Shown here in pieces: positions 9,244 through 56,772 of a stretch of DNA of 56,989 nucleotides. Below the pieces are notes generated by a model. That model was not told where the DNA came from. It ran no database searches and saw nothing but the letters and a program-made list of their open reading frames with translations. Position 1 is the stretch's first letter; the number at the start of each line of letters is the position of its first letter. Position numbers and translations under genes: made by a program. The stretch is from Flavisolibacter nicotianae (lineage in GTDB: Bacteria > Bacteroidota > Bacteroidia > Chitinophagales > Chitinophagaceae): the NCBI RefSeq assembly GCF_003628535.1, contig NZ_RBCI01000019.1:1-56989 (forward strand). The letters run 5' to 3'.

Positions 9244-9298
9244 CAAAACAACGAACTGCTTATTAGCCGAATGTTACCGAAGTGTTATACATTTGTTA
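9244..9298 (-). promoter_or_regulatory. Pho-box-like promoter of the glycosyltransferase/GH1 unit
   Basis: On the minus strand the half-sites TAACA (9294-9298), TAACA (9283-9287), TAACA (9272-9276) and TAATA (9261-9265) recur exactly every 11 bp. After a 9-bp gap comes TTGTTTTG (9244-9251), one base off TAnnTTTG. The ATG is at 9193. Tandem repeats with an 11-bp period are the hallmark of PhoB-family operators; the cyanobacterial Pho box is also built on TTAAC. Confidence 0.65.
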
Positions 9299-9329
9299 TG
9301 GTATAAGAACACTATTTTTCACAACTAGA

Positions 9330-9373
9330 TGACATTACCATAACATTTTGGTTATACAGCACAACCATCTTTG
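9330..9373 (+). promoter_or_regulatory. Pho-box-like promoter of intergenic element A
   Basis: Plus-strand half-sites TGACA (9330), TAACA (9341) and TTATA (9352) recur every 11 bp. A 9-bp gap then leads to CATCTTTG (9366-9373), one base off TAnnTTTG. The architecture matches the gene promoters of this window but faces the short element at about 9380-9454. Confidence 0.5.
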
Positions 9374-9379
9374 TCAGGC

Positions 9380-9454
9380 AGTCAATTAAGCAAATCAATC
9401 GAAGCGTATCTTCTCATGTCGTAGCCCGGCTGTTTTTACAGCGGGGCTTTTTTT
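9380..9454 (+). ncRNA. Putative small RNA A (about 75 nt)
   Basis: There is no open frame here. A conserved GCAGTCAA, then AATCGAAGCG (9397-9406), lead to an intrinsic terminator with stem AGCCC-G-GCTGT / ACAGC-G-GGGCT and seven or more Ts. The same order of blocks and a near-identical hairpin recur at 23631-23704 (element B). A promoter-like box lies immediately upstream. It is divergent from the glycosyltransferase gene. Transcription is inferred, not shown. Confidence 0.5.
9423..9454 (+). terminator. Intrinsic terminator of element A
   Basis: An 11-bp stem with one G-G mismatch and a TTTT loop, followed by a run of Ts on the plus strand. The minus strand has no T-run, so it should work only for plus-strand transcripts. 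Confidence 0.65.
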
Positions 9455-9520: not shown

Positions 9521-10288
9521 TTACCGGGGATGAGCCAGCTCAACGCTCTGTTGTGCATTAATGCCTTTTCTAAATAAAGATTGAAAAAAAGCTCTTGTAT
9601 ATTTTGCCTGCACGTTGAAAAAGCCTTTGGCGTTGTAACGGCGTGAGGAACTTTTTACCGTGATCTTTCGTGTAAAAAGAATATGACCGTAACGGCTCAC
9701 CTTTAACGCAATGTCCACGTCATCACCATAAAAACAAAGCGCGGTGTTGTAGCCGCCTGCTCTTTCCAGGATAGCTGCATGAATGAAAACATTACCCCCG
9801 ATAACAACACCGCCCTTGCGGAACACTTGCACGATTGTATTGAGTGGCTGCAAAACGAGTAACTGGCTAAAATAAGTGAGTGTGCGAACAAGGAACTTCC
9901 CATCAAAATAATCATACGGGCCGGCAACGGCGGCAATGCCCTTCTGCTGCAACAATTTTACACCGTTGCTGATCCAGTTGGGGGACGGCAGGCAATCGGC
10001 ATCCAATTGTGCGATTATTACACCAGTTGCATTCTTCCGGCCGCACTCCCTGGCAAACTGCGTTCCCTGACGCCCCTCATTCAGTAGCCTGAACTTGAAC
10101 GTAAGATGATTGCGGTAAATAAAGGATCTCACCACTTCGGCCGTGCGGTCGGTGGAGGCGTTGTTGATGATAAGCACTTCACAATTGGTGTAATCCTGCT
10201 GCTGCAAGGCTTCCAATGTTTTGAGGATGTACTTTTCTTCGTTATAGGCCGGAACAAGCACGGAGACTTTCGGCGTTGCGTTTTCCAT
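9521..10288 (-). CDS. GT2 family glycosyltransferase
   Basis: A 255-residue GT-A fold enzyme. KVSVLVPAYNEEKYI opens the nucleotide-binding domain, INNASTDRT is the conserved second motif, QLDADCLPS is the DxD-type metal site (about residues 94-98) and YGDDVDIALKVSRYG carries the catalytic acidic residue. No transmembrane segment is evident, so it is probably a soluble or peripheral cytoplasmic enzyme. Donor and acceptor are unknown. It starts 5 bp after the stop of the alkaline-phosphatase-like gene and forms a two-gene operon with it, under the box at 11462-11505. Confidence 0.9.
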   Translation of the reverse strand: MENATPKVSVLVPAYNEEKYILKTLEALQQQDYTNCEVLIINNASTDRTAEVVRSFIYRNHLTFKFRLLNEGRQGTQFARECGRKNATGVIIAQLDADCLPSPNWISNGVKLLQQKGIAAVAGPYDYFDGKFLVRTLTYFSQLLVLQPLNTIVQVFRKGGVVIGGNVFIHAAILERAGGYNTALCFYGDDVDIALKVSRYGHILFTRKITVKSSSRRYNAKGFFNVQAKYTRAFFQSLFRKGINAQQSVELAHPR

Positions 10289-11436: not shown

Positions 11437-11461
11437 AACGAGAGGTTTTGCAAAGAAACCA

Positions 11462-11505
11462 CCGCTATATTTCCGCAGGATGAAGCGAAGTTTACGTTCA
11501 TGTTA
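11462..11505 (-). promoter_or_regulatory. Pho-box-like site upstream of the alkaline-phosphatase-like gene
   Basis: Minus-strand half-sites TAACA (11501-11505), TAAAC (11490-11494) and TCATC (11479-11483) have an 11-bp period. After 9 bp comes TATAGCGG (11462-11469), which keeps only the TA and final G of the -7 box. It is weaker than the other sites but in the right place, 26 bp before the ATG. Confidence 0.4.
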
Positions 11506-11745
11506 CGAATGGAGTCATACCTGCAACGTCTACATGTTGTTGACAAAACCATCATTTTGCCGTAACGATTTATTCATTTTGATAATAGAACTTGACACTC
11601 CAATATTTTCGGTATGAAAAACGTCATACATGTTATTAAGCTTGCTATTTTCCTGCGTTACTTCCGCCAGTAAAATCTCGCTCTGAAGACAGGTGGACAA
11701 GCATCTATGAAATGTAGGGATCAAGGCCTAATGGCCAGGCCGGGG

Positions 11746-13599: not shown

Positions 13600-14988
13600 T
13601 TACTTATTCCAAACAGTCCAACCGGCAGTCCAGTCATTATTTGGGTCTACAGCCCCTCTGAAACTCACTTTTTCAAAGAACGTGTCGCTCAACGTTCCAA
13701 AATCAAACAAGGCTCCGGCTAATAATGGTGAACCGGCAGCAGGCTTCAGATTTGGCGTACCGTTGTTGAATGGATCGGTAATCTTTGCATCGGCAGCAGT
13801 TGAAATAACGGTAGACTTGTATGCTCCTGTTGTTTGAGCGGTAACAGAGGCGAGGTCGTAAGTGGTGCCACCAGCCAGCGCCAGCCCTGATTGTACATCA
13901 ATTGGATTGATGACCGCTTGTACCAAGCTGTTGTAAAAGGCACTTGTTCCTCTTACATAAGCGGCGACCGTTGAATCTTCCTGTAGACGCAGACCGCCTT
14001 TTTGACCGCCAACCACCACAGAGTTAGCCAAAATGAATTTGGCACCTCTTCTCCAACGCATACCCCAACCATAATCTGCCGATGTACCGGTTGCGCCGTT
14101 CGGACCGATGGCTGTAAAATTTGAAAGTACAGGGAAGGTAATTGGCGTACGGGTCAAGAGGAAGCCGTTGCTCGGGTTTACATTATCCACTTCAAAGTTG
14201 TTTGATACATCGCCAGTCGTGCCCTTATTGTCCGTGAATTTTGGATCCTTAATAGAAATACCAAATTGGATTTTCCCCCTATAGCCGTCGTCCATATCAA
14301 AATCATCATCTGCACTGTTGTAAGCGATCAGGTGTTTACAATTAACAGTGCCGCCGAAAAATTCATAAGCATCATCCAAACCTCTTACCACCTCCACATA
14401 ATCAATCGTGGTTCCGCTGCCCACAGCATATAGCGATAAGCCATTGACTTCATCACCGGGGTTTACAGCTTTACCGGCATACTCGATGCGTACATAACGT
14501 ACCACGCCGGAATTATGCGCATCGTTGGTGCCACCGAAAGCACTGAAGGCAGGATCCAAACCGCCTTCCATGACGGAGTGGTTTCCGTTCGAGGTAGCCT
14601 GCCCGGCAATCACCAAGCCACCCAGGTCACCAGGTTGCGGATTGGCTTCAGCCGAGGTAAAGACAATCGGGCTGCTGGCTGAGCCATCGGCCATGATTTT
14701 GGCATCACGATAAATCACCAGGACACCGGCAGAGTCCCTATTCGAAACGATTTTGGTACCCGGCTCAATGGTCAGGGTAGCGCCGCCAGTCACATAGACA
14801 TAACCACGAAGACGGTACACATAATCCTTTTTCCAGGTCGTGCTGGTATTGATGGTACCTCGTACGTCAATAGTGCTGCCCACTGCGGGAGTGTTGCCAG
14901 TCGGGACTGTTTGATCATCGCTTTTCTTACACGAAGCCAGTGCGATAATGCTGGCAAAGGCAACGGACAAAGTAAGTCTGTTCATCAT
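13600..14988 (-). CDS. Outer-membrane lipoprotein with parallel beta-helix fold
   Basis: A 462-residue protein with a lipoprotein signal peptide (IIALASC, Cys20). The repeated strand-turn pattern (GATLTIEPGTKI; GGLVIAGQATSNG; VVRYVRIEYAG; IDYVEVVRGLDDAYEFFGG; DDDFDMDDGYRG) is typical of a large Bacteroidota beta-helix family that pairs with a TBDR. It starts 70 bp after the receptor gene and has its own TAACA-type box. It is likely the surface partner of that receptor, for binding or processing. No catalytic residues can be named. Acidic DDDFDMDD may bind calcium. The ligand is unknown; co-regulation suggests a phosphorus source. Confidence 0.8.
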   Translation of the reverse strand: MMNRLTLSVAFASIIALASCKKSDDQTVPTGNTPAVGSTIDVRGTINTSTTWKKDYVYRLRGYVYVTGGATLTIEPGTKIVSNRDSAGVLVIYRDAKIMADGSASSPIVFTSAEANPQPGDLGGLVIAGQATSNGNHSVMEGGLDPAFSAFGGTNDAHNSGVVRYVRIEYAGKAVNPGDEVNGLSLYAVGSGTTIDYVEVVRGLDDAYEFFGGTVNCKHLIAYNSADDDFDMDDGYRGKIQFGISIKDPKFTDNKGTTGDVSNNFEVDNVNPSNGFLLTRTPITFPVLSNFTAIGPNGATGTSADYGWGMRWRRGAKFILANSVVVGGQKGGLRLQEDSTVAAYVRGTSAFYNSLVQAVINPIDVQSGLALAGGTTYDLASVTAQTTGAYKSTVISTAADAKITDPFNNGTPNLKPAAGSPLLAGALFDFGTLSDTFFEKVSFRGAVDPNNDWTAGWTVWNK

Positions 14989-15006
14989 AAAATTTTATTT
15001 GCGCAG

Positions 15007-15061
15007 CGAAACTATTTTCAGCTTGTTAAGCTATTGTTACCGCAGTTTTACCGTACTATTA
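15007..15061 (-). promoter_or_regulatory. Pho-box-like promoter of the beta-helix lipoprotein
   Basis: Minus-strand half-sites TAATA (15057-15061), TAAAA (15046-15050), TAACA (15035-15039) and TAACA (15024-15028) follow an 11-bp period. After exactly 9 bp comes TAGTTTCG (15007-15014), one base off TAnnTTTG. The distal half-site overlaps the stop codon of the upstream receptor gene. Confidence 0.65.
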
Positions 15062-17839
15062 TTTTGACAGGTTGTAGCGTACACCGAGGCTGATGGTGGT
15101 ACCATATTTATAGGTGTTCATCAATTTGTCAACCGAAGGATCATACACTGTTTTTGACGGATTTGCCTCATACTTATAATACCATGAGAACGGCTGCGCA
15201 AACACATCGCTAACCGTCAGCTTGGTTTCAAACCGGTTATTCAGGAACTTTTTGCTTACCTGCAAATCCAACACATCTCGTGGTTTTTCGAAAATGTTCC
15301 GTCCGGCCGAAGAAGCTGCCCGAAACTTCAGGCGTTGGCCAATGCGATTGTACAGCACATTGAAAGAAAAGTCGTCATTGTCGGCACTGTACGTCAACCC
15401 ACCGTTCACCAAGTAAGGCGACTGACCCTGCATGGGGCTGTTGATGCTTTCACCGTTGAACTGCACCGATCCTTTCAGCAATGAAGCATTGCTGTAAAAT
15501 GTCAGGTGATCGAGGAAGGCATTGTTGAAAAACGTCAGCCGCTTTCTCAACTCCAGTTCCACTCCATAAACCGTTGCATTGTCGGCATTGGCAAAGCTCA
15601 ACACATCGTTGCCCAAATTGGTTTGCTCAATGGGGTTTTTGAAGTATTTGTAAAATGTGCTTACCGAAATAATCTCACCTGGATTGGGAAACCATTCATA
15701 TCGCAGATCGGCATTGGTGTTTTTGCTGCGCACCAGGTTGTTGTTTCCCTGCACGATAAAATCATTTTCGTAATCGTACACCCGGTAGGTTGCCAGTTCT
15801 CTGAACTCCGGACGGTTGACAGTTTGCGAGCCTGCTGCACGAAAATTGGCTTTCGGTGTCAGAGCATAGGTGAACAGCATTGACAGAAGAATGTCGGTAT
15901 TGTCAAGGGAGACTTTCGCCTTTCCTTTTGTATTCAGTTCCTGCAGGTACTTCTCGGCCCGAACACCCCAGGTCAGTTTCACTTTGTCAGAAAAACGGTT
16001 GTCCAGCATCACATAGCCCGAATTCAGCAAACCAGTTCCCGTATAATCAGTTGCAGAAGCGGCAATGGGTGCATAGATCATTCCATAGTGGTCGATATTT
16101 TCGGGAGAAAGCAGGGTACGGAAAGTGGTCGATTTTGTTTCCGGAATGGTGGCTCCCCTGAAATCGGTGGACGCAAGTCCCAGCGCATTGACCTCAACGT
16201 TGCGGTCGCGGTAATAGTTGGCTGTACCCACTTTCAGTTTTTGCATCTGGCCTTTCCATGTGAATTGCTTCGCAGCATTCAGGTTGGCTCCATAAATATT
16301 TTCTTTAAGGAAGGAATAAATACGGCCGGCATCCTTGATCACGGGTGAGTTTTGGTTATTGAGGCGTAGGAAGTAGTTTTCCGAATTGGGTTCAGTGACG
16401 AAACTTAAAATATGCTGGTCAGGCTGCCAGCGATAAGTAGCCCCGAATGAGCCGTTCCAATCAATCGTCCAGGCCTTGCCCAATGTGTGTACACCTTCCA
16501 ACACCGAGTTAAAGATGCCGTTTTGTGTCGCTTCGGTATTCTGGCTTTTATAGTTAAAGGTGAAGCCCTGGTTTTCCACGTTACGGCCAAAGCGCTGCGA
16601 GAACGAACTCACAAAGTCATTATTGAACAAATTTTTCAGCGAGATTTTGTTCTTCCCGTAAGAGTACGTCAGGTTCAGCAGGGCCGACAAGCTGCTGCGC
16701 ATGTCGTAGGTATTGGTGTTGTAATAATAGTCCTGCATTCGGTAGGTTTCCCATTCATCCCTTGTCCGTTCAGCCACCCGGCGGCCGTTATTGTAATTCA
16801 GGGCATATATATATCCGAGCTTATTGCTTTCGTTCAGCAGTTTGGTGTTGCCACCTGTGTACGCAAAACTGAAATTCGGCTGACTTTGATTGCCGGCTTC
16901 CATACCGTAGGCATTTGGAAACTGCTTGGTGATCGCCAGTTTGGTTCCATCACTCAGGTTACTATAGGGTGAGCCGCGGTATTTGTAATAAGAACCGGGA
17001 ATCAGGCGGGAATTGTCAAAAAAGCCCAAAGCATCAAGGCCGCCTTGCGGATATCCTTTGTAGAAATTTTTAAACGTCGTCAGCGTATTGTAGCCCGCAT
17101 TAAACGATACTTCCGAAATAGGCCTTGACGGATAATCACGGGTGGTGATTTTTACGGCACCACCGGCAAAATCTCCTGGCAGATCCGGTGTGGGTGATTT
17201 GTAGATGGTAATGTTATCAATCAATGAAGACGGAAGAATGTCAAATGAAAAAGCCTTTTTATCTGGTTCTGTGCTGGGAAGGACAGCGTTGTTCAGTTGT
17301 GATGAATTGTATCGTTCGCTCAGGCCGCGAATGACAACGAATTTGTTATCCTGAATGGCCGTACCGCTGACCCTGCGAAGGACTTCACTGGTGTTGCGGT
17401 CAGGCGATTTTTTGATCACTTCTGCAGAAATAGCATCGGAAATAGCCGAAGCATTCTTTTGGACGGTGTAAAGAGATGCTACACTTTCTCTTCTGGCATT
17501 GGCTTTCACCACAATTCCGGTCATTTCAGCCTTTGCTTTTTCCAGGGTAATCGTTAAGGGAGCACTGTCTGTCCCTTGGACATCGCTAACAACTTTGGGC
17601 TGATAGCCCACATTGGTCACTTTGATTGCATACGTTTTTCCTGGTGCTACGGCCAGAAAGAAAACACCTTCCACGTCTGTTTTTGTTGCCACCGCGCTTC
17701 CTTCGATGGTGATGGTTGCTCCTACCAACGGCGAATTGTCGGTTGCGTCAGTTACCTTCCCCGTAATTTTTGTTTTGGCCTGCGAATAGCCGAGGGTTGT
17801 GATCAGTAAAGAGAAAATGAAAACAAAAGTACCTTTCAT
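15059..17839 (-). CDS. TonB-dependent receptor with N-terminal carboxypeptidase-regulatory-like domain
   Basis: Start taken at 17839 (MKGTFVFIFSLLITTLGYSQ); the frame opens 8 codons earlier without a signal. The product has 926 residues: a beta-sandwich domain (KITGKVTDATDNSPLVGATI to about residue 100), a plug with SEVLRRVSGTAIQDN and VVIRGLSERYNSSQLN, then a 22-strand barrel. The barrel ends VRYNLSK rather than in the usual aromatic residue. This TBDR type usually travels with a beta-helix lipoprotein, as here. It imports a large solute across the outer membrane. The TAACA-type promoter points to regulation with the other phosphorus genes. Confidence 0.9.
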   Translation of the reverse strand: MKGTFVFIFSLLITTLGYSQAKTKITGKVTDATDNSPLVGATITIEGSAVATKTDVEGVFFLAVAPGKTYAIKVTNVGYQPKVVSDVQGTDSAPLTITLEKAKAEMTGIVVKANARRESVASLYTVQKNASAISDAISAEVIKKSPDRNTSEVLRRVSGTAIQDNKFVVIRGLSERYNSSQLNNAVLPSTEPDKKAFSFDILPSSLIDNITIYKSPTPDLPGDFAGGAVKITTRDYPSRPISEVSFNAGYNTLTTFKNFYKGYPQGGLDALGFFDNSRLIPGSYYKYRGSPYSNLSDGTKLAITKQFPNAYGMEAGNQSQPNFSFAYTGGNTKLLNESNKLGYIYALNYNNGRRVAERTRDEWETYRMQDYYYNTNTYDMRSSLSALLNLTYSYGKNKISLKNLFNNDFVSSFSQRFGRNVENQGFTFNYKSQNTEATQNGIFNSVLEGVHTLGKAWTIDWNGSFGATYRWQPDQHILSFVTEPNSENYFLRLNNQNSPVIKDAGRIYSFLKENIYGANLNAAKQFTWKGQMQKLKVGTANYYRDRNVEVNALGLASTDFRGATIPETKSTTFRTLLSPENIDHYGMIYAPIAASATDYTGTGLLNSGYVMLDNRFSDKVKLTWGVRAEKYLQELNTKGKAKVSLDNTDILLSMLFTYALTPKANFRAAGSQTVNRPEFRELATYRVYDYENDFIVQGNNNLVRSKNTNADLRYEWFPNPGEIISVSTFYKYFKNPIEQTNLGNDVLSFANADNATVYGVELELRKRLTFFNNAFLDHLTFYSNASLLKGSVQFNGESINSPMQGQSPYLVNGGLTYSADNDDFSFNVLYNRIGQRLKFRAASSAGRNIFEKPRDVLDLQVSKKFLNNRFETKLTVSDVFAQPFSWYYKYEANPSKTVYDPSVDKLMNTYKYGTTISLGVRYNLSK

Positions 17840-17860
17840 GATTTGATTGATTGACCGTGG

Positions 17861-17937
17861 CAAAAGTAGAAAGGCCGTGTGACGGGAAGCTTACTGGCTC
17901 ATTAAGTTATTGTAAATGCAGTATTAAGAAATTATGA
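17861..17937 (-). promoter_or_regulatory. Pho-box-like promoter of the 15059-17839 receptor
   Basis: The minus-strand 11-bp series is TCATA (17933), TAATA (17922), TTACA (17911), TAATG (17900), TAAGC (17889), TCACA (17878). It is followed after 9 bp by TACTTTTG (17861-17868), a perfect TAnnTTTG. The ATG is 22 bp further on. There is no -33 TTTG, as expected for an activator-dependent promoter. Confidence 0.65.
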
Positions 17938-17978
17938 CCGCAGGATTAATTTAGTTTTATTCTACTGACCTTGTTGGA

Positions 17979-28099: not shown

Positions 28100-29242
28100 C
28101 TAAACCGCGATTGACGGACCGGTCATTTGCTGCACCACTTCTTCGGCTAGTCCAAAGGACAGCGTCATACCGGCGCCACTCAAGCCGTTGATGATGGTCA
28201 CGCCTTCTTCGGGTTGATGAATAAATTCGGTAGCGCCATCAGTGCTTTTTGGATAAATGCCGTTCCAGGTTTGCAAAATTTGCCAGTCCTTGAAGCGGGC
28301 AAATGTTTTCAAATAATCGAGGATCATCCGGTTGATGAACTCTTTGTCAAAGGGATCGTGCACCAGGCCGTATTCGTGGCTGTCGCCAACCGTCAGTTCG
28401 CCTTCGCCATTCTGCGACACCATTACGTGAATGCCCCACTTTCCGTAGTCAGGCATCGTTTGCTGGTAGTGTTGTTTCAACTGCGGCAACGTGGGGGCTA
28501 CTTCAAACCCCTTGTAATGCGTCAGCGACAGTCCGCCGCAAAGCGAAGGACCAATGCGCCAGCCGTTGGGTTGCGCCATCAGGCGCATCATCTGCAGTTT
28601 GCATTTGGTGATGGCACTTGCGGTAAAAACTTCAGGATACAAAGTTTCAAAGTCGGCGCCGCTGCAAACATAAATTACATCTGCCTCCCACCTTCTTTTT
28701 CCGGAGGAAACAACCGGGTATTCTATGTTCGTAATGGCGGTGTTGAAATGGAACTGAACACCAAATTTCTGTTGCAAGTAAGCCGGAAGTTTTTCAATGG
28801 CCACGCGGGATTCTACAATCATTTCATCGGCGCACCACAAAGCGCCCAGCAAACCGTCCGTATTGACAGCTTCGCTTTGGCTGGTTGCCTCCGCAGCGGT
28901 TAACAATTTTACGGGGCGGTGCTTGCTGGCCTCAGCAAACTCCTGCAGCACCAGCCATTCCAACGGGTGATAAGCCAGGTGAAAGCTACCCGTCTCGCTG
29001 TACCACAACCCGGCTTCGGTGCAAACCTGTTTCCAAACGGCTTTGCTGCGCAGGGCTCTTTCGTATAATCCACCATCCGGCTGACCAATGGGCCACAACA
29101 TCCCGAAGTTGCGGATGGACGCACCAATGGCTTTTTCGTTGCGTTCAAAAACGGCCACAGCATAACCCCTTTCCGCAAGGCTTTTGGCCGTTGCCAGTCC
29201 GACAATACCTGCACCAATCACAATGGCTTTTTCACGCTGCAT
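28100..29242 (-). CDS. FAD-dependent oxidoreductase of phosphonate operons (TIGR03364 type)
   Basis: A 380-residue DAO-fold flavoprotein. AIVIGAGIVGLATAKSLAER (residues 6-25) is the Rossmann FAD site, and SIRNFGMLWPIGQPDGG (42-58) is a signature of the TIGR03364 group found in phosphonate gene clusters. GLSGAGMTLSFGLAEEV near the C-terminus closes the FAD site. There is no signal peptide. Members of this group have been linked to oxidative deamination of aminophosphonates; I recall such work but cannot cite it. The gene overlaps the transporter gene by 11 bp. With no aminotransferase (PhnW) in the cluster, it may supply phosphonoacetaldehyde to the PhnX-like enzyme, an inference. Confidence 0.88.
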   Translation of the reverse strand: MQREKAIVIGAGIVGLATAKSLAERGYAVAVFERNEKAIGASIRNFGMLWPIGQPDGGLYERALRSKAVWKQVCTEAGLWYSETGSFHLAYHPLEWLVLQEFAEASKHRPVKLLTAAEATSQSEAVNTDGLLGALWCADEMIVESRVAIEKLPAYLQQKFGVQFHFNTAITNIEYPVVSSGKRRWEADVIYVCSGADFETLYPEVFTASAITKCKLQMMRLMAQPNGWRIGPSLCGGLSLTHYKGFEVAPTLPQLKQHYQQTMPDYGKWGIHVMVSQNGEGELTVGDSHEYGLVHDPFDKEFINRMILDYLKTFARFKDWQILQTWNGIYPKSTDGATEFIHQPEEGVTIINGLSGAGMTLSFGLAEEVVQQMTGPSIAV

Positions 29243-30539
29243 AAACTTCTTTTATTGGCAAAGATGAAGAATGAAATTTTCGTTTATAGTAAATCGAAGC
29301 AACAACTGTCCCAACCATTCCGACAGATGAAACCAGAAAAACCGCACCGACGAAAAATGTAGTCCAGGATAATTGCAATCCGAGAAATTCTTTTAAGAAC
29401 AACACAAGGACACTTCCCAAATACCCGAACGAATCAGCGATGTACATCATAAAGCCCACGTTGCCGGTCACTCTGTAGGAAGCGATCATCCGCTCGAAAT
29501 ACAGGGCATTGAAGGGCACGTAACTCAGATACAAACCCGTTCCGATGAGTGTCATCCACGCAACAGCACCAATGTCTTGCCGGGTAAATAAAACGGTAGC
29601 AATGAGCGCCAGCGCATAACCGGCCATGATGATATAATGATTGATCAAAAAGGCTTTGAAATTATCTTTCACCAGGATCAGGAGCCCCATACAAAACAGC
29701 ACGATCAGCGAAACCGGGATCTCCGTTTTGGTGAAGATGGAAGGCTGGCTGCTGTAGCCCAACTCTGTCCAGAGTTCATTGGCAAAATTGTCCCGGAAAT
29801 CACGCAGGATGGTTAAGAGAACATAGGTAAAAACAATCACGATAATCCCCGGCAGAAAGATGGACACAAACTGTTTTCGCTCATGCCCCGTCATTGGTTT
29901 TCGGACACTACGCAGGCGTACGTCTTCTTCGGTCGGTGGCGGCACATGATGCAGCAGCCAGGCAAACAAGATCATGGGCAACACAAACAGGCCTCCTGTA
30001 AAAAAAGGCATCCACATTTCGCTGACACCCCTGTTCACCACCAGGGACTTGCCCAGGCTTTTCACCACACCGGACGAAAAGATAAAACTCACCGACAGCA
30101 CGGCGCCCATCAGTTCCGTGGTCTTTCTTCCTTCAAGATAACTGAACACCAGTCCCCATACCATGCCCAGTGGAAAGCCGTTGATAAAAAGAAAGAGTAT
30201 GTTGTATGGCGACGGCGTCAGGGCAAAAAACAGAAGGGCAATCCAGGCAATCAAAATCAGGAGCACAATGGTGGCGGCACGGTTGGCGCCTTTCATCGCA
30301 GAGATGAAACGGATCCCGTAAAATTTGCTCAGCATGTAGCCAATCACCTGGGCCGTGACCAGCCAGACCTTGTAATCAATGTGCAAAAAATACTGCCCCT
30401 GGAAACCCGCTGCCGTAAACGGCTTGCGAAAGGCATACATGCAGAAATAGGTGGCAAACGAACACACCGCCGCATACACCGTGATCAGCCATTGCGGCAT
30501 CCCGGACAGGCGTTGATGAAAGGAAGGAAGAAAAAACAT
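29232..30539 (-). CDS. DUF5690/MFS-type inner-membrane transporter
   Basis: I take the start at 30539 (MFFLPSFHQRLSGMPQWLIT), 4 bp after the PhnX-like stop; the frame runs 33 codons further up, inside that gene. The product has about 435 residues and roughly 12 membrane helices. FATYFCMYAFRKPFTAAGF is the mark of the DUF5690 family, a branch related to the organophosphate:phosphate antiporters of the MFS (GlpT/UhpT-like). The place in the operon suggests uptake of a phosphonate across the inner membrane. The 3' end overlaps the oxidoreductase gene, so translation is coupled. Confidence 0.88.
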   Translation of the reverse strand: MFFLPSFHQRLSGMPQWLITVYAAVCSFATYFCMYAFRKPFTAAGFQGQYFLHIDYKVWLVTAQVIGYMLSKFYGIRFISAMKGANRAATIVLLILIAWIALLFFALTPSPYNILFLFINGFPLGMVWGLVFSYLEGRKTTELMGAVLSVSFIFSSGVVKSLGKSLVVNRGVSEMWMPFFTGGLFVLPMILFAWLLHHVPPPTEEDVRLRSVRKPMTGHERKQFVSIFLPGIIVIVFTYVLLTILRDFRDNFANELWTELGYSSQPSIFTKTEIPVSLIVLFCMGLLILVKDNFKAFLINHYIIMAGYALALIATVLFTRQDIGAVAWMTLIGTGLYLSYVPFNALYFERMIASYRVTGNVGFMMYIADSFGYLGSVLVLFLKEFLGLQLSWTTFFVGAVFLVSSVGMVGTVVASIYYKRKFHSSSLPIKEVYAA

Positions 30540-30543
30540 CGGT

Positions 30544-33614: not shown

Positions 33615-33633
33615 TTTTCTTTTCTTTTTAAAA

Positions 33634-36600: not shown

Positions 36601-36897
36601 CAGGGCTATTGGCACAAAATCGCCGGTGATCTTCGATGAAATGGTTTGGTAACCGATAAAGCTAACGGTAAGGATATCGCCGTCATTAGCACGAATGGTA
36701 AATTCTCCCGCGGCATTGGTGGTCGTCACCGCTTTTGAATTCTTCACCGCAATTGTTGCCCCGGCAATCGGTGCCGCTGTTTGGACATCTGTTACTTTTC
36801 CCCTGATTGGAGCTGTTTGTGCAAAGAGCTGAAAACTGAAGGAAAAAGAGACAAACAAAAGGAGCAGCAGTTTGACCTTTGGATAGACTTGCTTCAT
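33634..36897 (-). CDS. SusC/RagA-family TonB-dependent transporter
   Basis: A 1087-residue protein: signal peptide (to LFAQ), carboxypeptidase-regulatory-like domain (IRGKVTDVQTAAPIAGATI), a TonB-box-like segment (NEVVVTATGIKK), a plug with the SusC signatures SLKGNVAGLSV, GDGAPMYVVDGVPM and ESFTILKGPNAAALYGFAGQ, then the barrel, ending in NLVF with a terminal Phe. It forms the outer-membrane pore with the SusD 19 bp downstream. Upstream is a five-half-site TAACA array with a perfect -7 box, so phosphate limitation probably induces the pair. The XRE-cupin remnant just upstream may once have given substrate control. Confidence 0.95.
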   Translation of the reverse strand: MKQVYPKVKLLLLLFVSFSFSFQLFAQTAPIRGKVTDVQTAAPIAGATIAVKNSKAVTTTNAAGEFTIRANDGDILTVSFIGYQTISSKITGDFVPIALVQNDARLNEVVVTATGIKKEVKRLGYATQTVDAGRLTQAREPNPLNSLKGNVAGLSVNINPEMGHAPGISLRGDGAPMYVVDGVPMTSDTYNVNPDDIESFTILKGPNAAALYGFAGQNGAIIITTKKGSRNKKGFTVEFNTSNQFSKGFIALPRVQDEYGPGEYGTYAFGDGKGGGVNDYDYDGGWGPKLDGRLLPQYDGPFDPNQTYTTKFENGLTYTGHVKPTLWVARGKDNLQRFLQTGLLSTTSLALSSSSEKTDSRFSVGNTYQRGIVPNTSLNNFNATANLTQRFTNRLTLTTYLNYNRQSTPNLPDVNYGPNSIIYNMTLWGGADWNIADMRDYWQAGKVGVQQKYAEYWRYNNPYFMSYEWLRGHYMNNEYGYVALNYKLNNNIDFLVRPSVNAYDFFNSEKVPYSANSYRSASWGDYREDRRSLFQTNIEAQARYQRNRILGFLDVQGLLGANLRNFKFNSNYTTTNYLNVPGIYAFSNSLNAVQATSFNSGMKVLSGYYSFDMGYGSYVTLNATGRVDKSSTLPTNNNTYFYPSFNLATVISEYVKLPEAISFVKARASFAESKAGGTASTFSPNISGLPGSEYGYAYPSPYDGPSYQFSRTYTLSPSYNNINSASYSNQSIDPLIKTNSRKAWEYGLDLRFLKNAIGVDITRYHYRNTGIVSKGMSAASGDYSNLTNGNTYTNDGWEVAVNATPFKNPNGFNWNVAANWFTFKKVWVNNSNPNNYVKNGTRTDLIYGNAFVRTPDGQLVHDAKSGLLLRYSDLGVTAQKVYGHADPDWQWGVVNTLGYKNLSLRFQFDGMVGGVMEDYVRKKTLQGGRHIETAEGAFGDARPNDARGSAAYSYVGQGVVLTGAPIVLDPITGEITNMKGLTVSPNTNPTSVQGYVSRMASIPDLDMISKTYAKLREVSLSYAFPSTLFGNKAFFKQASLSLVGRNLLYFFPSRYKDVDVDQYTQDSGSNLQTPTTRSYGVNLNLVF

Positions 36898-36919
36898 AAT
36901 GGAAAATGATTTCAGAGCG

Positions 36920-36985
36920 CAAACCTATCCGGGTTGTGTTAAGGAGATATTGTTTGTAAATTACGAAAAGGTTAACCAATATTAA
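36920..36985 (-). promoter_or_regulatory. Pho-box-like promoter of the phosphonate-side SusC/SusD
   Basis: The minus-strand 11-bp series is TTAAT (36981), TAACC (36970), TAATT (36959), CAATA (36948), TAACA (36937). It is followed after exactly 9 bp by TAGGTTTG (36920-36927), a perfect TAnnTTTG, 22 bp before the ATG. It is the longest array in the window. Confidence 0.65.
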
Positions 36986-37068: not shown

Positions 37069-37651
37069 TTACGAGGGATGTGATTTCGTCAAAAGGCAAA
37101 CAACAAGCATCTCCGCATCGACTCTACCTGCGTTTTTGGGATTTTGCAACTTTCTTGCATCAAAGAAAAGGGAATCGCCTTCTTCCAAAACATAAACCTC
37201 ATTGCCGATTGACTATTCTACTTTTCCTTTCAAAACGTATTTGAATTCGAAGGCTTCCGTGCGTTCGGCCGGCCGCATGCGGTAAATGAGTCAGCAATAC
37301 AAAATCGAGATGATAGTCCTGAACTTGCGTGGAAAAGAGCCGCCGATAAGTGAATTCTTTAGTGTTTTCTTTTTCAAAGGGCCGCTAATTTTCTTTTTTC
37401 CGGACGATCACTTTCTGTTGTCCATCCCTGACATAAATGCTGGAGAAGAACTCATCCAGAATAATCTCCAAGCCCTTGATTAAACTTATCAAAACGTTCA
37501 ATGAAGAAATGGTGCGGCAGTTTTCAATCTGCGAGAGCACCCCCTTGGTGATGCCTGCCGCATCGGCCAGTTGCTGCAACGTGACACGTTTTTCCGTACA
37601 CATGTCCCGCAAGCGCTGACTGATCTGAATAATTACATCTTCCTGCACCAT
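37069..37651 (-). pseudogene. XRE-family HTH/cupin regulator, broken
   Basis: Start taken at 37651 (MVQEDVIIQISQ). An intact HTH follows (LQQLADAAGITKGVLSQIEN, then LNVLISLIKGLEI). At 37385-37387 TAG stops the frame. Beyond it the cupin linker continues in frame (RPFEKENTKEFTYRRLFSTQ), shifts frame near 37270-37290, then gives RTEAFEFKYVLKGKVE, a second TAG at 37213-37215, and VYVLEEGDSLFFDARKL to a TAA at 37069. The intact family member is a ligand-sensing repressor or activator of about 190 residues. Only an 88-residue DNA-binding half can be made now, without its sensor. It lies upstream of SusC on the same strand and was probably the local regulator. Confidence 0.85.
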
Positions 37652-37675
37652 AGTAACGCTAAGAAATATAATTCG

Positions 37676-37707
37676 CTCCACGTTTCAGTTTTGTTATGCC
37701 TCCACGT
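37676..37707. promoter_or_regulatory. Direct repeat upstream of the XRE-cupin gene
   Basis: CTCCACGT occurs at 37676-37683 and again at 37700-37707, start-to-start 24 bp. Next to the second copy is CACGTAAAT (37703-37711), which recurs at 36987-36995 in front of SusC. These could be binding sites of the regulator; this is inference from position only. Confidence 0.35.
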
Positions 37708-37989
37708 AAATAATTGCTGAACGGCCTACCACAACGCGTCTATTGAACTTGCTCATGATTCATTAAGTCGTCGTTGCGATGTTCAGGCAAAGTAGTGAGC
37801 ACTTAAACTTAGCGAGACGATGGGTTCATTCTGATCTTATACTTTCCGCCGCCATTTAAAAATGATCTTTGGGTAATGATTACTTGACATTCTGTTCATC
37901 TTAAAGAATCAATTTCAATTAAATTTCCGGCAAAGCACCCGGCCTCCACAGGTGTTGGATGTTTTGACTTCGGCATGATATACCTCTTT

Positions 37990-38106
37990 ATGAAAACCCA
38001 AGAAAATTATCGCCGCAAAAAGAGAATCAGCAAAGCATTGCTTCGGGTGGTGATGCTGATTGGCTTTGCCGTCATCGCCTTAATGCTGTATTTGATGGAC
38101 CGGTAG
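37990..38106 (+). CDS. 38-residue single-pass membrane protein
   Basis: ATG at 37990 (an earlier in-frame ATG lies at 37975) and TAG at 38104-38106. The product begins MKTQENYRRKKRISKALLRV and ends in one hydrophobic helix (VVMLIGFAVIALMLYLMDR). The basic N-terminus and single helix suggest a small membrane protein with the N-terminus in the cytoplasm. Function unknown; the call rests on composition and a clean helix. Confidence 0.45.
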   Translation: MKTQENYRRKKRISKALLRVVMLIGFAVIALMLYLMDR

Positions 38107-38237
38107 CCGGTTGAAATTTTTCAAGATGATGCAGTTCTTCAGCGTAATAATTCGATAAAGCTTCGCTAATATTCCCATAACCACTAGCGGGAACAGAGAA
38201 CCTACTTTAGCATCGAAAAGCGATCTCTCGGCAAGGC

Positions 38238-38826
38238 ATGAAAAATCAGCGAAAGAAAATTCTCTTTTTAGTTGGCTCACTCAACCAGAGGACACAGATG
38301 CACAAGATTGCCTTGTATCTTCCCGAATACGACTGCTTTTTCATCCAGTAGTATTCATCCAATCCCCTTGTGCAATTGGCCCTGAAAGGCGGTTTGCCCG
38401 AAGGAACTGTGTCGGGAAAAAGCTGCAACAACGTTCAGACCATTACCTGCAACAACTCAACCTGGCCAACGATTATGCGGTCGCCGTGTACAGGGACCGG
38501 TACGACATGGCAGTGTTTTGCTCCGATTTGTTGATTGACAAGGACCTGCAGAAGATCAAAACCGTTTTTGTGCAGGGCGGCATGACGGACCCGATTACAC
38601 CGCTTGCAAAATGGTGCACAAGCTGGGACTGGCCCCTACTTTGCTAAAAACACCGCCCTGAATGGCAGCAGCGATTCCGTTGATCTTTATGGTGCCGCCT
38701 CGAAAGAATACCAAGAACAGTTTGCAGAACAGGGCACCAGTCCCGAAATTTTTTTTGACCGGCCTCCCGAATTACGACAACATTGGAAAATTAGCTGCCT
38801 GCAATTCCCTTCCGTTTCCGTTTTAA
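38238..38826 (+). pseudogene. Decayed gene of the UDP-GlcNAc-epimerase/CDP-glycerol-transferase-like fold
   Basis: Pieces in three frames line up with a known Bacteroidota protein type: KKILFLVGSLNQRTQMHKIA, an in-frame TAG at 38349-38351 in FFIQ*YSSNPLVQLALKGG, then in another frame HYLQQLNLANDYAVAVYRDR and YDMAVFCSDLLIDKDLQKIK. Later come FAKNTALNGSSDSVDLYGAA and, after a T8 run, FLTGLPNYDNIGKL. Family members have about 380 residues and resemble sugar epimerases or teichoic-acid-type glycerophosphotransferases. At least two frameshifts and one stop make it dead. Confidence 0.7.
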
Positions 38827-39191
38827 AAATTATCCAATACACCTACCCTTTTGTTGTAGAAGAAGTGGATACCATTCTTTGCGGCGTGTTTTCGGAAACA
38901 GAAATTGACATTGCCTGCGCCAGTTCAGTGGATCGCTAGCGTCATCCTCAAAAAAGACCTCTTCAACCGTCATTGAAAAACCAATACGGTGAAAATCCCG
39001 GAGTAAAGTGCAAACCTGCGTTAGATTAACAATACCCGCCTGAAGGAGAAACGAACAGGTATGGTTACAGAAGTTGTTTTCAAGAAAAAGCCTGCGGCAA
39101 ATGGCAGGCCTCGTAATGATAAAGAAGCGGGATAACACCCACCGACGTTCTAATAACAATCGAAAGATTCTCTCGGGTTGTCATACATAAA
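38827..39191. other. Stretch without a supported gene
   Basis: A minus-strand frame (38830-39159) has protein-like pieces such as LTQVCTLLRDFHRIGFSMTV, but it overlaps the decayed gene and has no clean start. I cannot assign it. Confidence 0.35.
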
Positions 39192-39404
39192 TCAAATTTC
39201 GAAGACTGACGCTGCCGGTCGGGGTTCTTTTTCCTTTTTCGCCTTGCGAATACCTGCAAGTAAAATCTTCTCCACTTTTTGCATTCTGCGCTTGAACTTC
39301 TTTTTCCCCAATGTGTGCTCCAAATCTGTCAAGGAGAAAAGTGCCTGGCTTACCTGTAGGCGAGCCTGTTTTCGGGTGAGCTTCTGCGGTGTCCGATTAC
39401 CCAT
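39192..39404 (-). CDS. Small conserved hypothetical protein, 70 aa
   Basis: A basic helical protein (MGNRTPQKLTRKQARLQVSQ, then LTDLEHTLGKKKFKRRMQKV) of a type I recall as widespread in Chitinophagaceae and relatives, with a LTRKQAR..VS...L.....TLG.KKF..R..K pattern. It has no signal or membrane segment. Lys/Arg content suggests nucleic-acid or ribosome contact, which is a guess. It stands alone. Confidence 0.6.
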   Translation of the reverse strand: MGNRTPQKLTRKQARLQVSQALFSLTDLEHTLGKKKFKRRMQKVEKILLAGIRKAKKEKEPRPAASVFEI

Positions 39405-39843
39405 GTGAATAACAGTTTAGTAACACTAATTTAATACAGGGTGCAGGATTTCAATGTTAAGCTTTGACGCAAGCAAATGCAAATGTGGCTTTATCAATTT
39501 TGCTGGCGTGACAAGGAACGAACACTTGCTGTTCACCAATCATCGGGAATGTTCAGACCGAGTCTATTGACGAAAAAATTATGGAGGCAGGGTTGTGAAT
39601 GGTCGCTTTTACCCCGGCCAATCTCTGACTCAAAAGTTTCAAAATCTTGAAGAGGAGATGCAACTGAAGATTGAAGACCTGCTTGCCGACGTTCAGGCGC
39701 AGGTTCGATTTGAATCCTTCCCTTAATTGCGCCTGTCATTTGGAGAAGGTCGCCCACTACTTTTTTCATCCTATAACCTTTTGGATAGCTGAATGGTTAT
39801 TCGGTTCTCACACGAACCGTTTACATCCTCAATTTGCCGCTAT
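39405..39843. other. Gene-poor stretch
   Basis: About 440 bp. A minus-strand frame of 78 codons (39533-39769) has no recognised motif. No terminator with a T-run is seen after the following minus-strand gene. Confidence 0.4.
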
Positions 39844-53110: not shown

Positions 53111-56100
53111 TTAGAAATTGATGCTTGCCCCAAGCGTATAGGTTTTTTGCATGGGGTAAGAGAAGCCATCGCCACCACCGCCGTTGATTTCCGGATCGGA
53201 ACCTTCGATCACTTCCGGATCGAAGTTCTTTGTGATCTTGAACATGCGTGAGTAGGTCCAGAGGTTTTGCCCTGTGAGATAAACACGCACCGACGAAAGC
53301 TTCAGTTTTTGCATCATGCTTCGCGGAAGTGTATAACCAATGGTGAGGTTTTTGAGCCGCACATAGCTGGCATTTTGCAAATAGCGGGTTTGCGCCACAG
53401 CCAGTTCTCTGCTACCGGAAAGGGCCACATACCCGCGATAGCGTGGGAAGTAGGCGTCCTGGCTTGGGTTGTCTTCCGTCCAGCGATTTAAATTAAATGC
53501 CGGCAGGAAGCTATAGGGACGGTTGTATTGCCCCCAGAAATACGCCGCTTCCGTGGAAGGGAACCAATCCCGTTTGCCCACGCCCTGGAAGAAGAAAGAA
53601 AGCGAAAGATTGTTCCAGTCCATGTTACCGGTGACACCATACGGAAAACGGATCGAGGAATTACCAATGATCTTCTGGTCACCGGGATCATCCAGTGTAT
53701 TCTTCCCTCTGTTTACTTTTCCATCGCCGTTCAGGTCGGCAAACTTGATGTCGCCGGGCAGCAGTTTGTTGGCGTTACTCACCACAAAATAGCTTTGATC
53801 GGCATGCTTAGCGATTTCATCCTGGGAAGTAAAAAACCCTTCTGTCTGGAAGCCCCAGATATCGCCCAGCTGTTGGCCGACATAATAGGTTGACAAAAGC
53901 TTATTGGGGTTGTAAAACCTGGTAATGTGAGAAATGTTATCGGCAAGCGTCACACGCAGGTTATAGGAGAAGGGCTTGCGGCGGCCGATGTGATCGGACC
54001 AGTCGAGGGAAAGCTCCCATCCTTTTGTGACCAGGTCTGCATTGTTGCCTTTGGGTACGGAAGCACCAAAGGTGGCGGGCAGCGGCTGGCCGGCGGTGAT
54101 CATTCCGGTGGTGTTTCGCTGATACCAATCGTAAGTCAGTTTTAGTTTTCTTTTCAACAATTCCACATCACCACCCAGGTCAAAGGTGGTGGCCTTTTCC
54201 CAGGTGAGGCCTGTTGGCACAACAGCCGGCTGTTGAAAATAGCTGGGAAACACACCGCCCATGATCACCGAAGATGTGGCCGATGAAATGGTCTGCATGA
54301 AGGTATAGGGTGAAATGTTTCCGTTACCGAGCGAACCATAAGAAGCCCGCAGTTTCAGGTTATCCAGCCAGTTGCGGGTTGGTTCCATAAAATGTTCTTC
54401 CGATATTTTCCATCCGGCAGAAGCGGAAGGAAAGAAGCCAAAGGCCTGGCTGGCCGGAAACTTGGACGATCCATCATAACGGCCGTTCAGCTCGAGCAGA
54501 TATTTGCTTTTGAAATTATAATTGGCACGGTAGAAAAGGCCGGATGTGGCCCACTCGGAACCGCCGCCTCTCAAGGTATAATTCTGGCCGGTAGCAAGGT
54601 TGAAATCCGTGAGATTATCCACCAACAAACCATCTCTTTGTGCAAACAGGTTTTTTACCTGATCCTTCTCGAGGTTCAATCCACCCAACAGTTTCACGTT
54701 GTGCGGACCAAAGCTCTGGTTGTATTCGCCGTAAATGTTGCCAACGAGATAGTTCTCGGTGGTGCCGTTGTTGGACAAATAATTTAAACCCGAGGTAATG
54801 TCTTTATCCGGGCCTATGCTGTACGGAACGGTAAAGAAACGGCGCTGCTCGCTGGAATTGGTGTAGAGAAAAGAAAAATCGCCTTTTAGATTCAGCCTGT
54901 TTTTGATTACGGCTGCGTTGAATCCGACCGTGTTGCGAAGAAAGTTTTGCCTTGTGGTGGAATAGCTCTTTCCATAATAAAAATCACCGATGGAATAAGC
55001 ACCGACAATGCTCATGGAGCCATCCGGGTTGAGCATCGGCGATACCGGAAAAGCTGTCACCGCCATCAGCCGCCACACGGCGTTGACACCACCAACAGAG
55101 GTCAACGGATATTTGTAATTGTAACTGGAAAAATCGGAATTGCTGTTCAGCGTCAGCCAGTCGGTTACCTTCACACTTCCTTTCACCCGCAGGTTGTAGC
55201 GGTTAAAATTATCCGTGTTGTACCGGAAAATTCCATCCTGGTGGTAATACCTCCCGGAGATGAGGTAATTTATTTTATCCGAACCCCCGGAGACACTCAG
55301 CGAGTGTTCCATCGACGTGTTGTTGTCTTTATAGAGTTCCCTGAACCAGTCTGTGTTTGCGTAGTACTGGTATTTGCCGGTAGCAGGATTGACGGTCACC
55401 TGCGGGAGCCCCGGATGTTCATCATGGTACTTCAGTGAGTCCAGGTAAGCCATGGAAAACTCCAACTGTGAGTTGATGGATTGCGGATGCGAGAGGTAAT
55501 CGTTCCATGAATAAAAGGCCTCGTCGAAGTTTTTGGCCCAGAGGTAACCGTTGTTCACCAAGTCCGGTGTAAACGTTCGTTGATTAATGGAATAATTCGT
55601 GTTGTAGCTAATCTGCACCTTGTCCTTTTTTGCTGACTTGGTGGTGATCAGTACCACGCCGAATGAACCACGGGCCCCGTAGATGGCAGCAGAAGAGGCA
55701 TCTTTCAACACCGATACGCTTTCAATGTCGTTTGGATTGACCGTACCGGGATCACCGGGCACACCGTCGATCAGCACCAGCGCACTGCCGCCGGAACCAA
55801 TAGAGGTAACACCCCGGATGTTGAAAGACGGACTGCGTGTTGGCTTGCCATCCGTGATTTTGATATTCAGGTTCGGGATCACCCCCTGCAAGCCACGGGC
55901 AACATTGGGCAGGGGCCGGTCTTCAAAATATTCGCTGCCAACCTGGTCCACCGCACCGGTTAAGTTGACCTTGCGCTGGGTACCGTATCCAACGACCACC
56001 ACCTGACTTAAGGCGTTTTCGCCGGTGGTGAGCTGTACAGGCAAATTGATGGTTTCGCCTTGTTGGCTGGCCGTAGCGGTAACGACCTTTTTATCATAAC

Positions 56101-56359
56101 CTACGTACGTAAACGTAAACGTGTAGGTTTCGCCGGGTTTTACATTATTGATGATGAAATCACCCGCTGCGTTGGTTTGACTTGTTGCTGAAAAGTCGCC
56201 CGTTTTGTTTTGCACCGTAACCGTTACATTGGGTAACGCGTCTCCGGTTTCCGTTTTCACCCTGCCCTTTATTGCCGGCGGGTGTTGTTGTGCGAAGGTT
56301 TTGCTCCCTGGTCCCAACAGGACAAAAAAGCAAAGAAGAAATGAATAAAATTGTTTCAT
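53111..56359 (-). CDS. SusC/RagA-family TonB-dependent transporter
   Basis: Start taken at 56359 (MKQFYSFLLCFFVLLGPGSK); the frame opens 8 codons earlier. The product has 1082 residues: carboxypeptidase-regulatory-like domain (IKGRVKTETGDALPNVTVTV), ALSQVVVVGYGTQRKVNLTG as TonB box and linker, the plug with ARGLQGVIPNLNIK, VLIDGVPGDPG and ESVSVLKDASSAAIYGARGS, then the barrel ending LGASINF. It leads the five-gene operon SusC-SusD-EEP-phosphatase-TBDR. No TAACA array is visible upstream, unlike the phosphonate-side SusC, so control may differ. Confidence 0.95.
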   Translation of the reverse strand: MKQFYSFLLCFFVLLGPGSKTFAQQHPPAIKGRVKTETGDALPNVTVTVQNKTGDFSATSQTNAAGDFIINNVKPGETYTFTFTYVGYDKKVVTATASQQGETINLPVQLTTGENALSQVVVVGYGTQRKVNLTGAVDQVGSEYFEDRPLPNVARGLQGVIPNLNIKITDGKPTRSPSFNIRGVTSIGSGGSALVLIDGVPGDPGTVNPNDIESVSVLKDASSAAIYGARGSFGVVLITTKSAKKDKVQISYNTNYSINQRTFTPDLVNNGYLWAKNFDEAFYSWNDYLSHPQSINSQLEFSMAYLDSLKYHDEHPGLPQVTVNPATGKYQYYANTDWFRELYKDNNTSMEHSLSVSGGSDKINYLISGRYYHQDGIFRYNTDNFNRYNLRVKGSVKVTDWLTLNSNSDFSSYNYKYPLTSVGGVNAVWRLMAVTAFPVSPMLNPDGSMSIVGAYSIGDFYYGKSYSTTRQNFLRNTVGFNAAVIKNRLNLKGDFSFLYTNSSEQRRFFTVPYSIGPDKDITSGLNYLSNNGTTENYLVGNIYGEYNQSFGPHNVKLLGGLNLEKDQVKNLFAQRDGLLVDNLTDFNLATGQNYTLRGGGSEWATSGLFYRANYNFKSKYLLELNGRYDGSSKFPASQAFGFFPSASAGWKISEEHFMEPTRNWLDNLKLRASYGSLGNGNISPYTFMQTISSATSSVIMGGVFPSYFQQPAVVPTGLTWEKATTFDLGGDVELLKRKLKLTYDWYQRNTTGMITAGQPLPATFGASVPKGNNADLVTKGWELSLDWSDHIGRRKPFSYNLRVTLADNISHITRFYNPNKLLSTYYVGQQLGDIWGFQTEGFFTSQDEIAKHADQSYFVVSNANKLLPGDIKFADLNGDGKVNRGKNTLDDPGDQKIIGNSSIRFPYGVTGNMDWNNLSLSFFFQGVGKRDWFPSTEAAYFWGQYNRPYSFLPAFNLNRWTEDNPSQDAYFPRYRGYVALSGSRELAVAQTRYLQNASYVRLKNLTIGYTLPRSMMQKLKLSSVRVYLTGQNLWTYSRMFKITKNFDPEVIEGSDPEINGGGGDGFSYPMQKTYTLGASINF

Positions 56360-56728
56360 TTTATTTTGATTTAGACAATACAATTCCTCTCCCCAAACGG
56401 GGCTGTTTTTTCAATAGCAAGCGTGATGTTTTTGGATTACGCTAAAGTGTTTACCACTTCTTTTGAAAGAAGCTCATTGCGAAACGAAATGGTTGCTATG
56501 GCTTCATACTTTGATCTGTTGGTTAAGGAGCCGCAAATTAGGAATGCCGTAGAAGTTGTGGAATTAACTCTTTGTTACCAAATAAAGAAGGTTGCTTCAA
56601 CGGCTTCTGACGGGGCATCATCTCTTTCATCCGGCAAATCGAACCAAGAACGGCGAAGGAGCTCACCAGAAGACCAAGATCGAATGATTTTAAGTAGCGC
56701 ACACTTGGCCAATCAATTCACGTTGACG
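56360..56728. other. Intergenic region upstream of SusC
   Basis: About 370 bp. A short hairpin CCCC-AAAC-GGGG with following Ts (56393-56410, plus) is the only structure. A plus-strand frame (56423-56731) is serine/arginine-rich at its end and lacks family features; I do not call it a gene. Confidence 0.4.
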
Positions 56729-56772
56729 TGATGGTTTGATAACGTTCTGTTTAAACTGTTCTCACAGTTTTG
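56729..56772 (+). promoter_or_regulatory. Pho-box-like promoter, element C (similar to element B)
   Basis: Plus-strand TGATG (56729), TAACG (56740) and TTAAA (56751) have an 11-bp period, then exactly 9 bp to CAGTTTTG (56765-56772), one base off TAnnTTTG. It is followed by GCAGTCAAGCATTTGCA as in element B, but the terminator hairpin of A and B is not found before the window end. Confidence 0.5.

Follow-up and report, generated by a model that had tools for sequence, protein, structure and literature searches.

The window considered here is the entire contig C11 (NZ_RBCI01000019.1) of Flavisolibacter nicotianae, a member of the Chitinophagaceae, and its 56,989 bases make up 0.9% of a 6.09 Mb genome. 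Phosphorus acquisition is the main theme of its genes, which encode phosphodiesterases, phosphoesterases, two GDPD-type proteins, TonB-dependent receptors and SusCD pairs, in addition to a low-molecular-weight phosphatase and a phosphonate-type block. Part of these genes are preceded by arrays of TAACA-type half-sites that recur every 11 bp, and this TAACA motif is very probably a switch by which scarcity of phosphate activates genes for phosphorus scavenging. The individual features are collected in Table 1.

Table 1. Putative Pho-type sites and associated genes of the window. Scores are those of the pst promoter matrix, E-values those of the profile model R1; both are introduced in the text.
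Feature	Position	Strand	Remarks
Less clear matches	2374; 12141	-	Scores 5.9 and 9.8, respectively
Pho-type promoter of phosphatase gene	3571-3636	+	Score 10.7; 0 of 200 shuffles above 10; E=0.89
Low-molecular-weight phosphatase gene	3704-4162		Downstream of the + strand site 3571-3636
Small exported-protein gene	4585-5115		Downstream of the - strand array 5271-5336
Pho-type array before exported-protein gene	5271-5336	-	Score 17.2; pattern match; -7 box weak (TTTAC)
GH1 gene	6745-8106	-	Behind the glycosyltransferase gene
Glycosyltransferase gene, PF13528	8108-9193	-	Relatives adjoin phoBR in G003 (78%), G026 and G073 (38-39%)
Pho-type promoter of glycosyltransferase gene, GH1 behind	9238-9303	-	Score 16.8; E=0.003; four half-sites, -7 TTTTG ending at 9244, 51 nt to start codon
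Weak Pho-type array, divergent from the 9244 promoter	9314-9379	+	Score 6.3; no clear + strand gene behind
GT2 gene	9521-10288	-	Behind the PDE gene
Phosphodiesterase-like (PDE) gene, PF01663	10294-11436	-	phoBR-side relatives in G003 (69%), G026, G041 and G073 (49-50%), partial in G045
Pho-type promoter of PDE gene, GT2 behind	11445-11510	-	Score 38.4, highest of the window; E=0.012
Doubtful array, divergent from the PDE promoter	11536-11601	+	Score 10.5; -7 box imperfect (CTTGAC); nearest + strand gene 12330
Lipoprotein-like gene, without family assignment	13600-14988	-	
Pho-type promoter of lipoprotein-like gene	15001-15066	-	Score 19.9; E=0.1; -7 TTTCG
TonB-dependent receptor gene	15059-17863	-	Start codon probably ATG 17839
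Pho-type promoter of TonB-dependent receptor gene	17855-17964	-	Scores 20.2 (17855-17920) and 6.0 (17899-17964)
Phosphonate-type genes	28100-31833	-	HpnW (TIGR03364), DUF5690, PhnX-like, HD oxygenase; relatives beside phoBR in G045
SusD-like gene	32010-33644	-	Follows the SusC-like gene
SusC-like gene	33634-36897	-	
Pho-type promoter of SusC-like gene	36914-36979	-	Score 12.5; 0 of 200 shuffles above 10
Orphan three-half-site array	39410-39436	+	Pattern match, 1 mismatch; nearest TTTG 2 nt out of register (by eye)
Probable Pho-type promoter directed out of the contig	56713-56778	+	Weak, score 9.8

In its complete form the unit comprises four TAACA-type half-sites with a period of 11 bp, followed by a (C/T)TTTG -7 box; the T of the final half-site and the G of this box are 22 nt apart, and the unit is devoid of a -33 box. 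Main-sigma promoters of Bacteroidota feature a -7 box of the type TAnnTTTG together with a -33 TTTG box. The alignment A1, which consists of 11 promoter rows (ten from pst operons and one from a TonB receptor promoter of genome G002, none from the genome of the window), is invariant at the half-sites and at TTTG, and its -7 consensus reads ATTnCTTTGCA; compared with TAnnTTTG, the TTTG is kept in all 11 rows and the TA is not. Reading A1 by eye yielded no -33 TTTG box, the place of which is occupied by the last half-site; a missing -33 box had already been noted by an earlier reading of the window from its sequence alone (hereafter the sequence-only reading). When arrays were detected by their half-sites alone, leaving the -7 box unused, 47 of the 61 arrays had an exact TTTG at the 22-nt distance, four had it at 33 nt and four at other distances, while in the 11 training rows this spacing holds by construction. 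The unit hence occupies a fixed place beside the core promoter, in lieu of the upstream element. Within the window, the 22-nt gap is exact at 9244, 15007 (where TTTCG replaces TTTG), 17861 and 36920 on the - strand and at 9373 and 56772 on the + strand, the latter two boxes having formerly been listed by their 5' ends, 9366 and 56765; the fixed distance between half-site and -7 box claimed before is thus borne out.

The period of 11 bp stands out in the window. Three half-sites matching at least 13 of 15 letters form eight arrays at this period, as opposed to four for the 17 other periods between 6 and 23 combined, and at a threshold of at least 14 of 15 letters the ratio is four to zero. Moreover, the pattern TAACA-N6-TAACA-N6-TAACA with up to two mismatches occurs nine times in the 6.09 Mb genome, and eight of these matches, some of which overlap and which represent five separate places, fall inside the window. 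Scoring of the window relied on a 66-column matrix derived from the ten pst promoter rows, all of which stem from other Chitinophagaceae genomes. It returned 14 matches above 5 (two being overlapping registers of other matches), compared with 0.205 per dinucleotide shuffle and a maximum of two in 200 shuffles; eight matches exceeded 10, a value reached in none of the 200 shuffles. The arrays are accordingly real and exceed chance by period, shuffles and genome count alike. Five of the seven main sites are situated 15 to 51 nt from a start codon.

Chance would be a rival account: in intergenic DNA rich in A and T, TAACA-like words might recur at 11-bp intervals and happen to lie next to ordinary -7 boxes. 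It draws on the fact that the bare pattern is as frequent when reversed, since the triple was found nine times in the own genome against 16 times for its reverse and 110 against 109 times over 60 family genomes (summed from the table), and the two-site TTAACA pattern is even rarer than its reverse, with 335 against 516 occurrences in the own genome. With no excess over the reversed control, an array of 5-mers is by itself unfit as a marker, and the bare TAACA triple was dropped as such; specificity resides in the full architecture only. It is this full architecture that chance fails to explain, given the shuffles, the single match above 5 in the reversed window (11-row matrix), the exact 22-nt spacing, the results of the reversed model described below and the specificity for particular genes. 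A chance origin is therefore extremely improbable. The suspicion of random occurrence, which the sequence-only reading had named as its own refutation, applies to the bare pattern and not to the complete unit.

Of the eight sites listed by that reading, seven hold, two of them weakly (9314-9379 and 56713-56778), while 20025/20040 was discarded, its best score being -4.1 with no TTTG at the right place. The array at 11479/11462 is real; the -7 box assigned to it, TATAGCGG, is off by one 11-bp unit and is replaced by CTTTG with its G at 11451. The sites 3571-3636 and 5271-5336 extend the former list, as does a continuation of the 17861 array, which spans approximately eight half-sites in 11-bp register and is covered by two abutting cmsearch matches (17860-17915 and 17916-17959). 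The gene behind 56713-56778 is not seen because the contig ends at 56989. Between 9238 and 9379, two Pho-type arrays stand back to back, and the one on the + strand lacks an evident gene before the convergent gene at 9521; it is possible that it serves a small RNA or a short peptide. The orphan array at 39410 lies in a stretch of about 2.7 kb (37100-39840) that is poor in open reading frames (ORFs), one of which, 37385-37681 (-), has the look of an XRE-type regulator by eye.

A matrix trained on pst promoters from other genomes thus recovers the sites of the window. In the family, the unit is located directly upstream of 11 of the 13 pst operons with intact upstream DNA, namely those of the own genome and of G005, G013, G027, G036, G040, G048, G052, G057, G062 and G067. 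Not counted among the 13 are G004, G042 and G076, where the pst operons leave their contigs, and G016 and G023, which belong to other families. Beyond these operons, 80 named pst-porin loci were available, two of which (L163 and L172) were dropped for want of upstream DNA. Using the 11-row matrix, 69 of the remaining 78 passed the 99th shuffle percentile, and seven do so on the other strand. With the 10-row matrix and after removal of eight training loci, 61 of 70 exceeded this percentile and 57 scored above all 1400 shuffles; the 70 include L130 and L196, other loci of training genomes that both stay below the threshold, and some genomes contribute two loci. The own pst operon is accompanied by a second upstream array (L023, 9509-9574, +; score 15.7) which is directed away from it.

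Scans of genomes, of the family and of the class were based on model R1, which comprises all 11 A1 rows and whose Infernal E-values, obtained with a shortened calibration, are rough; the window and named-locus tests were redone with the ten pst rows. In the own genome, where 150 of 1815 candidates were scored, 11 matches up to E=0.89 were listed, ten of which fall to the pst promoter (one, E 8e-6), the window (five) and the phoBR locus at C1:1058-1061 kb (four). The remaining one, C64:237120 (E=0.2), is taken as chance, as no matrix match is found in L204. The C1 locus contains GDPD, a TonB receptor, PhoR and PhoB, the latter two at C1:1064.5-1066.4 kb, so that the own genome possesses a PhoB/PhoR pair with array promoters. 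For this reason, the regulator locus on C35, which harbours the sole triple-pattern match outside the window, was dropped as a phoBR candidate. More arrays near phoBR (L071, 1996-2061 and 411-443, both +) face stretches in which no large ORF is present; a small one follows the first array.

A PhoB relative is encoded in all 60 family genomes, and R1 at E<=0.01 identified matches in 55 of them, or in 47 of 52 once the eight training genomes are removed. Among 20 family loci that were read (from 117 matches, summed; own loci and L101, a contig end, were left out), 19 exhibit downstream genes related to proteins of the window or of the phoBR locus, compared with 4 of 137 control ORFs; ten are relatives of the receptor 15059-17863, four of the phoBR receptor, four of the lipoprotein 13600-14988 and one of GH1. 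Beyond the family, R1 matched 78 of 149 sampled Bacteroidia genomes, four of which are Chitinophagaceae (including G036 of the training set), as opposed to 13 for the reversed model R2, twelve of whose matches are supplied by G246. The 27 best loci in other families, out of 111 class matches (summed), comprise 11 in front of classical phosphate genes (PstS type 3, DUF47 4, pst porin 2, Porin_O_P 1, phoB 1), six in front of relatives of the receptor or the lipoprotein, and ten that are unassigned or lack an ORF. Hence, the profile marks phosphate genes outside Chitinophagaceae, too. The matrix-based enrichment check proposed by the sequence-only reading is positive in both directions: pst promoters lead to the window sites, and the profile in turn leads to promoters of pst, phoBR-linked, TonB-receptor and lipoprotein genes within the family and to phosphate genes in other families. 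At L216, L220, L226 and L230, from other Bacteroidia families, the profile precedes DUF47 (PhoU_div) genes, which suggests that low-affinity phosphate transport may be under PhoB control there.

Taken together, the unit precedes pst operons and genes linked to phoBR, TonB receptors and members of a lipoprotein family, as well as some of the phosphorus genes of the window, and 11-bp direct repeats in front of pst operons correspond to what a Pho box should look like. That the arrays are PhoB operators is, as a whole, the best explanation and highly likely, with PhoB binding and the phosphate response being predicted. Besides the bare-pattern counts, several points weigh against it. The pst operon of G035 lacks the unit, and so does the pst promoter of G002 itself, whose unit in the pst intergenic region is oriented towards a divergent TonB receptor and lipoprotein related to those at 15059 and 13600. 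TonB receptors are common in Bacteroidota, and the 137 control ORFs for the family loci (three of the four related ones being from the G002 receptor/lipoprotein locus) were drawn from pst regions rather than at random. In addition, R2 covers the class sample only, and the PhoB relative, although it fits PhoB models better than others, stays below their cut-offs. The receptor and lipoprotein operon of G002 (L024, 809-14003) diverges from pstSCAB-phoU, and phoU is followed, by eye, by a porin-like gene and DUF47-Pit type genes.

The identity of the regulator might also be questioned, because another response regulator of the OmpR family with 11-bp half-sites, for instance an ArcA-like protein of redox or envelope stress, could own the array and count phosphate genes merely among its targets. 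The own genome encodes eight OmpR-type DNA-binding (Trans_reg_C) domains, and the PhoP motif of Riemerella anatipestifer, derived from 583 peaks, was compared with and matched to ArcA by its authors (PMC9603813). The distribution of the matches argues otherwise: they concentrate on pst, phoBR and phosphorus genes both in the own genome and in the other families, and a match lies within 12 kb of phoB in 11 non-training genomes (by eye). Such an alternative owner is very unlikely, and PhoB is retained as the candidate regulator.

A further qualification concerns the reach of the operator within the window. Scoring 25 gene starts and scanning the whole window left most genes of the right half without a site, another point that counts against the best explanation; none was detected at either GDPD gene, at the phosphoesterases between 24-28 and 47-50 kb, at the receptors between 41 and 48 kb or at the SusCD genes between 51 and 56 kb, and a Pho box before the genes of the second half was dropped from consideration. 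Likewise, the whole-window scan assigned no site of their own to the phosphonate-type genes, among which the PhnX-like (TIGR03351) and HD oxygenase (TIGR03276) assignments are below cut-off; the promoter of the SusC-like gene is followed by the SusD-like gene and possibly serves these genes as well. The notion that one architecture governs the whole island was consequently too wide, as the promoters with support belong to genes located before 18 kb and, in addition, to a single SusC gene. It is somewhat more probable than its opposite that the operator, though real and PhoB-bound, serves part of the window only (glycosyltransferase, PDE, lipoprotein, receptor, one SusC, phosphatase and the gene at 4585), while GDPD, phosphoesterases and right-half SusCD answer to something else. 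This version refines the assignment to PhoB, and the best upstream scores of the site-less GDPD, phosphoesterase and right-half receptor and SusCD genes, from -4 to -26, speak in its favour; on the other hand, a wider control may be concealed by read-through within operons or by boxes too degenerate or too short for a 66-column matrix.

In other genomes, relatives of window genes adjoin phoBR. G003 has those of PDE, glycosyltransferase, GH1 and the phoBR receptor (69-83% identity) lined up next to phoR-phoB, G026 and G073 present relatives of lipoprotein, the 12330 hypothetical protein, glycosyltransferase and PDE by phoBR (38-52%), to which G073 adds the receptor, and G045 carries four phosphonate-type relatives there (43-58%). 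Relatives of the lipoprotein are found near phoBR (G026, G073) or pst (G002). Because G003, G026 and G073 carry its relatives beside phoBR, the left block of the window is inferred to correspond to their phoBR gene cluster.

Mechanistically, shortage of phosphate would cause the sensor PhoR to phosphorylate PhoB, and each half-site would then take up one PhoB monomer in a head-to-tail arrangement. Bound PhoB would thereby cover the -33 place, substitute for this contact of the Bacteroidota polymerase and hold the main RNA polymerase on a -7 box that stands by itself, on which PhoB would be needed, so that the genes should be silent when phosphate is plentiful. On a broader scale, it can be regarded as reasonably probable that a single Pho operator code extends across the class Bacteroidia, in which at least four TAACA half-sites in fixed register take the -33 position, a common set of pst, porin, DUF47-Pit, TonB-receptor, lipoprotein and phosphonate genes is served, and the 'ArcA-like' PhoP motif of Riemerella is the same box.

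Plant-associated Bacteroidota are prominent contributors to phosphorus mobilisation at roots (PMC8115612). As the switch precedes the phosphate pump genes of many relatives, the phosphate response of Chitinophagaceae should be predictable from DNA. The matrix and the spacing rule would render the regulon readable from genomes, receptor and lipoprotein families without annotation would gain a role, and the unit illustrates a way in which an activator may cooperate with a polymerase recognising -7 boxes of the TTTG type.

The TTAACA-type PhoP box of Bacillus subtilis appears similar to the Chitinophagaceae arrays in half-site and spacing. In Escherichia coli, PhoB binds head to tail to tandem 11-bp direct repeats, and 10 bp separate the box from the -10 element that follows it (PMC1906773, PMC4415409). 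The likeness to the window arrays concerns geometry, namely the 11-bp repeats and the fixed place by the core promoter. By contrast, the half-site is TAACA rather than CTGTCAT, there are usually four half-sites rather than at least two, the -7 box is of the Bacteroidota TTTG type, and TonB receptors and lipoproteins are among the targets. The cyanobacterial SphR Pho box, with 8-bp repeats, a 3-bp linker, the sequence CTTAACCT and at least three repeats (PMC1906773), shares the repeat plan; the differences concern the flanks, the regulon and the fixed -7 distance measured here.

Among the titles and abstract openings listed by the literature searches, none defines a Bacteroidota Pho box, and the Riemerella half-site was the one exception to the lack of a sequence-level operator. 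A TTTAACA motif of PhoP, obtained by DAP-seq, is already published for this one Bacteroidota species, and PhoP binds there to its own phoPR promoter and to a TonB-receptor promoter (PMC9603813). The resemblance rests on the motif, with PhoP as a candidate counterpart of PhoB, and may be taken as indirect support for PhoB binding of the arrays; an 11-bp array rule, a -7 spacing or a pst link was not found in the consulted part of that report. In Bacteroides fragilis, PhoB binds a fragment of the pstC promoter (PMC3547664). Low phosphate induces in Flavobacterium johnsoniae the SusCD-like PusCD, a phoBR-linked receptor and lipoprotein and a glycosyltransferase, and the main text of the corresponding article contains no occurrence of 'motif', 'promoter' or 'pho box' (PMC8115612). 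The gene classes of this regulon, with its PUS loci, are similar to those of the window.

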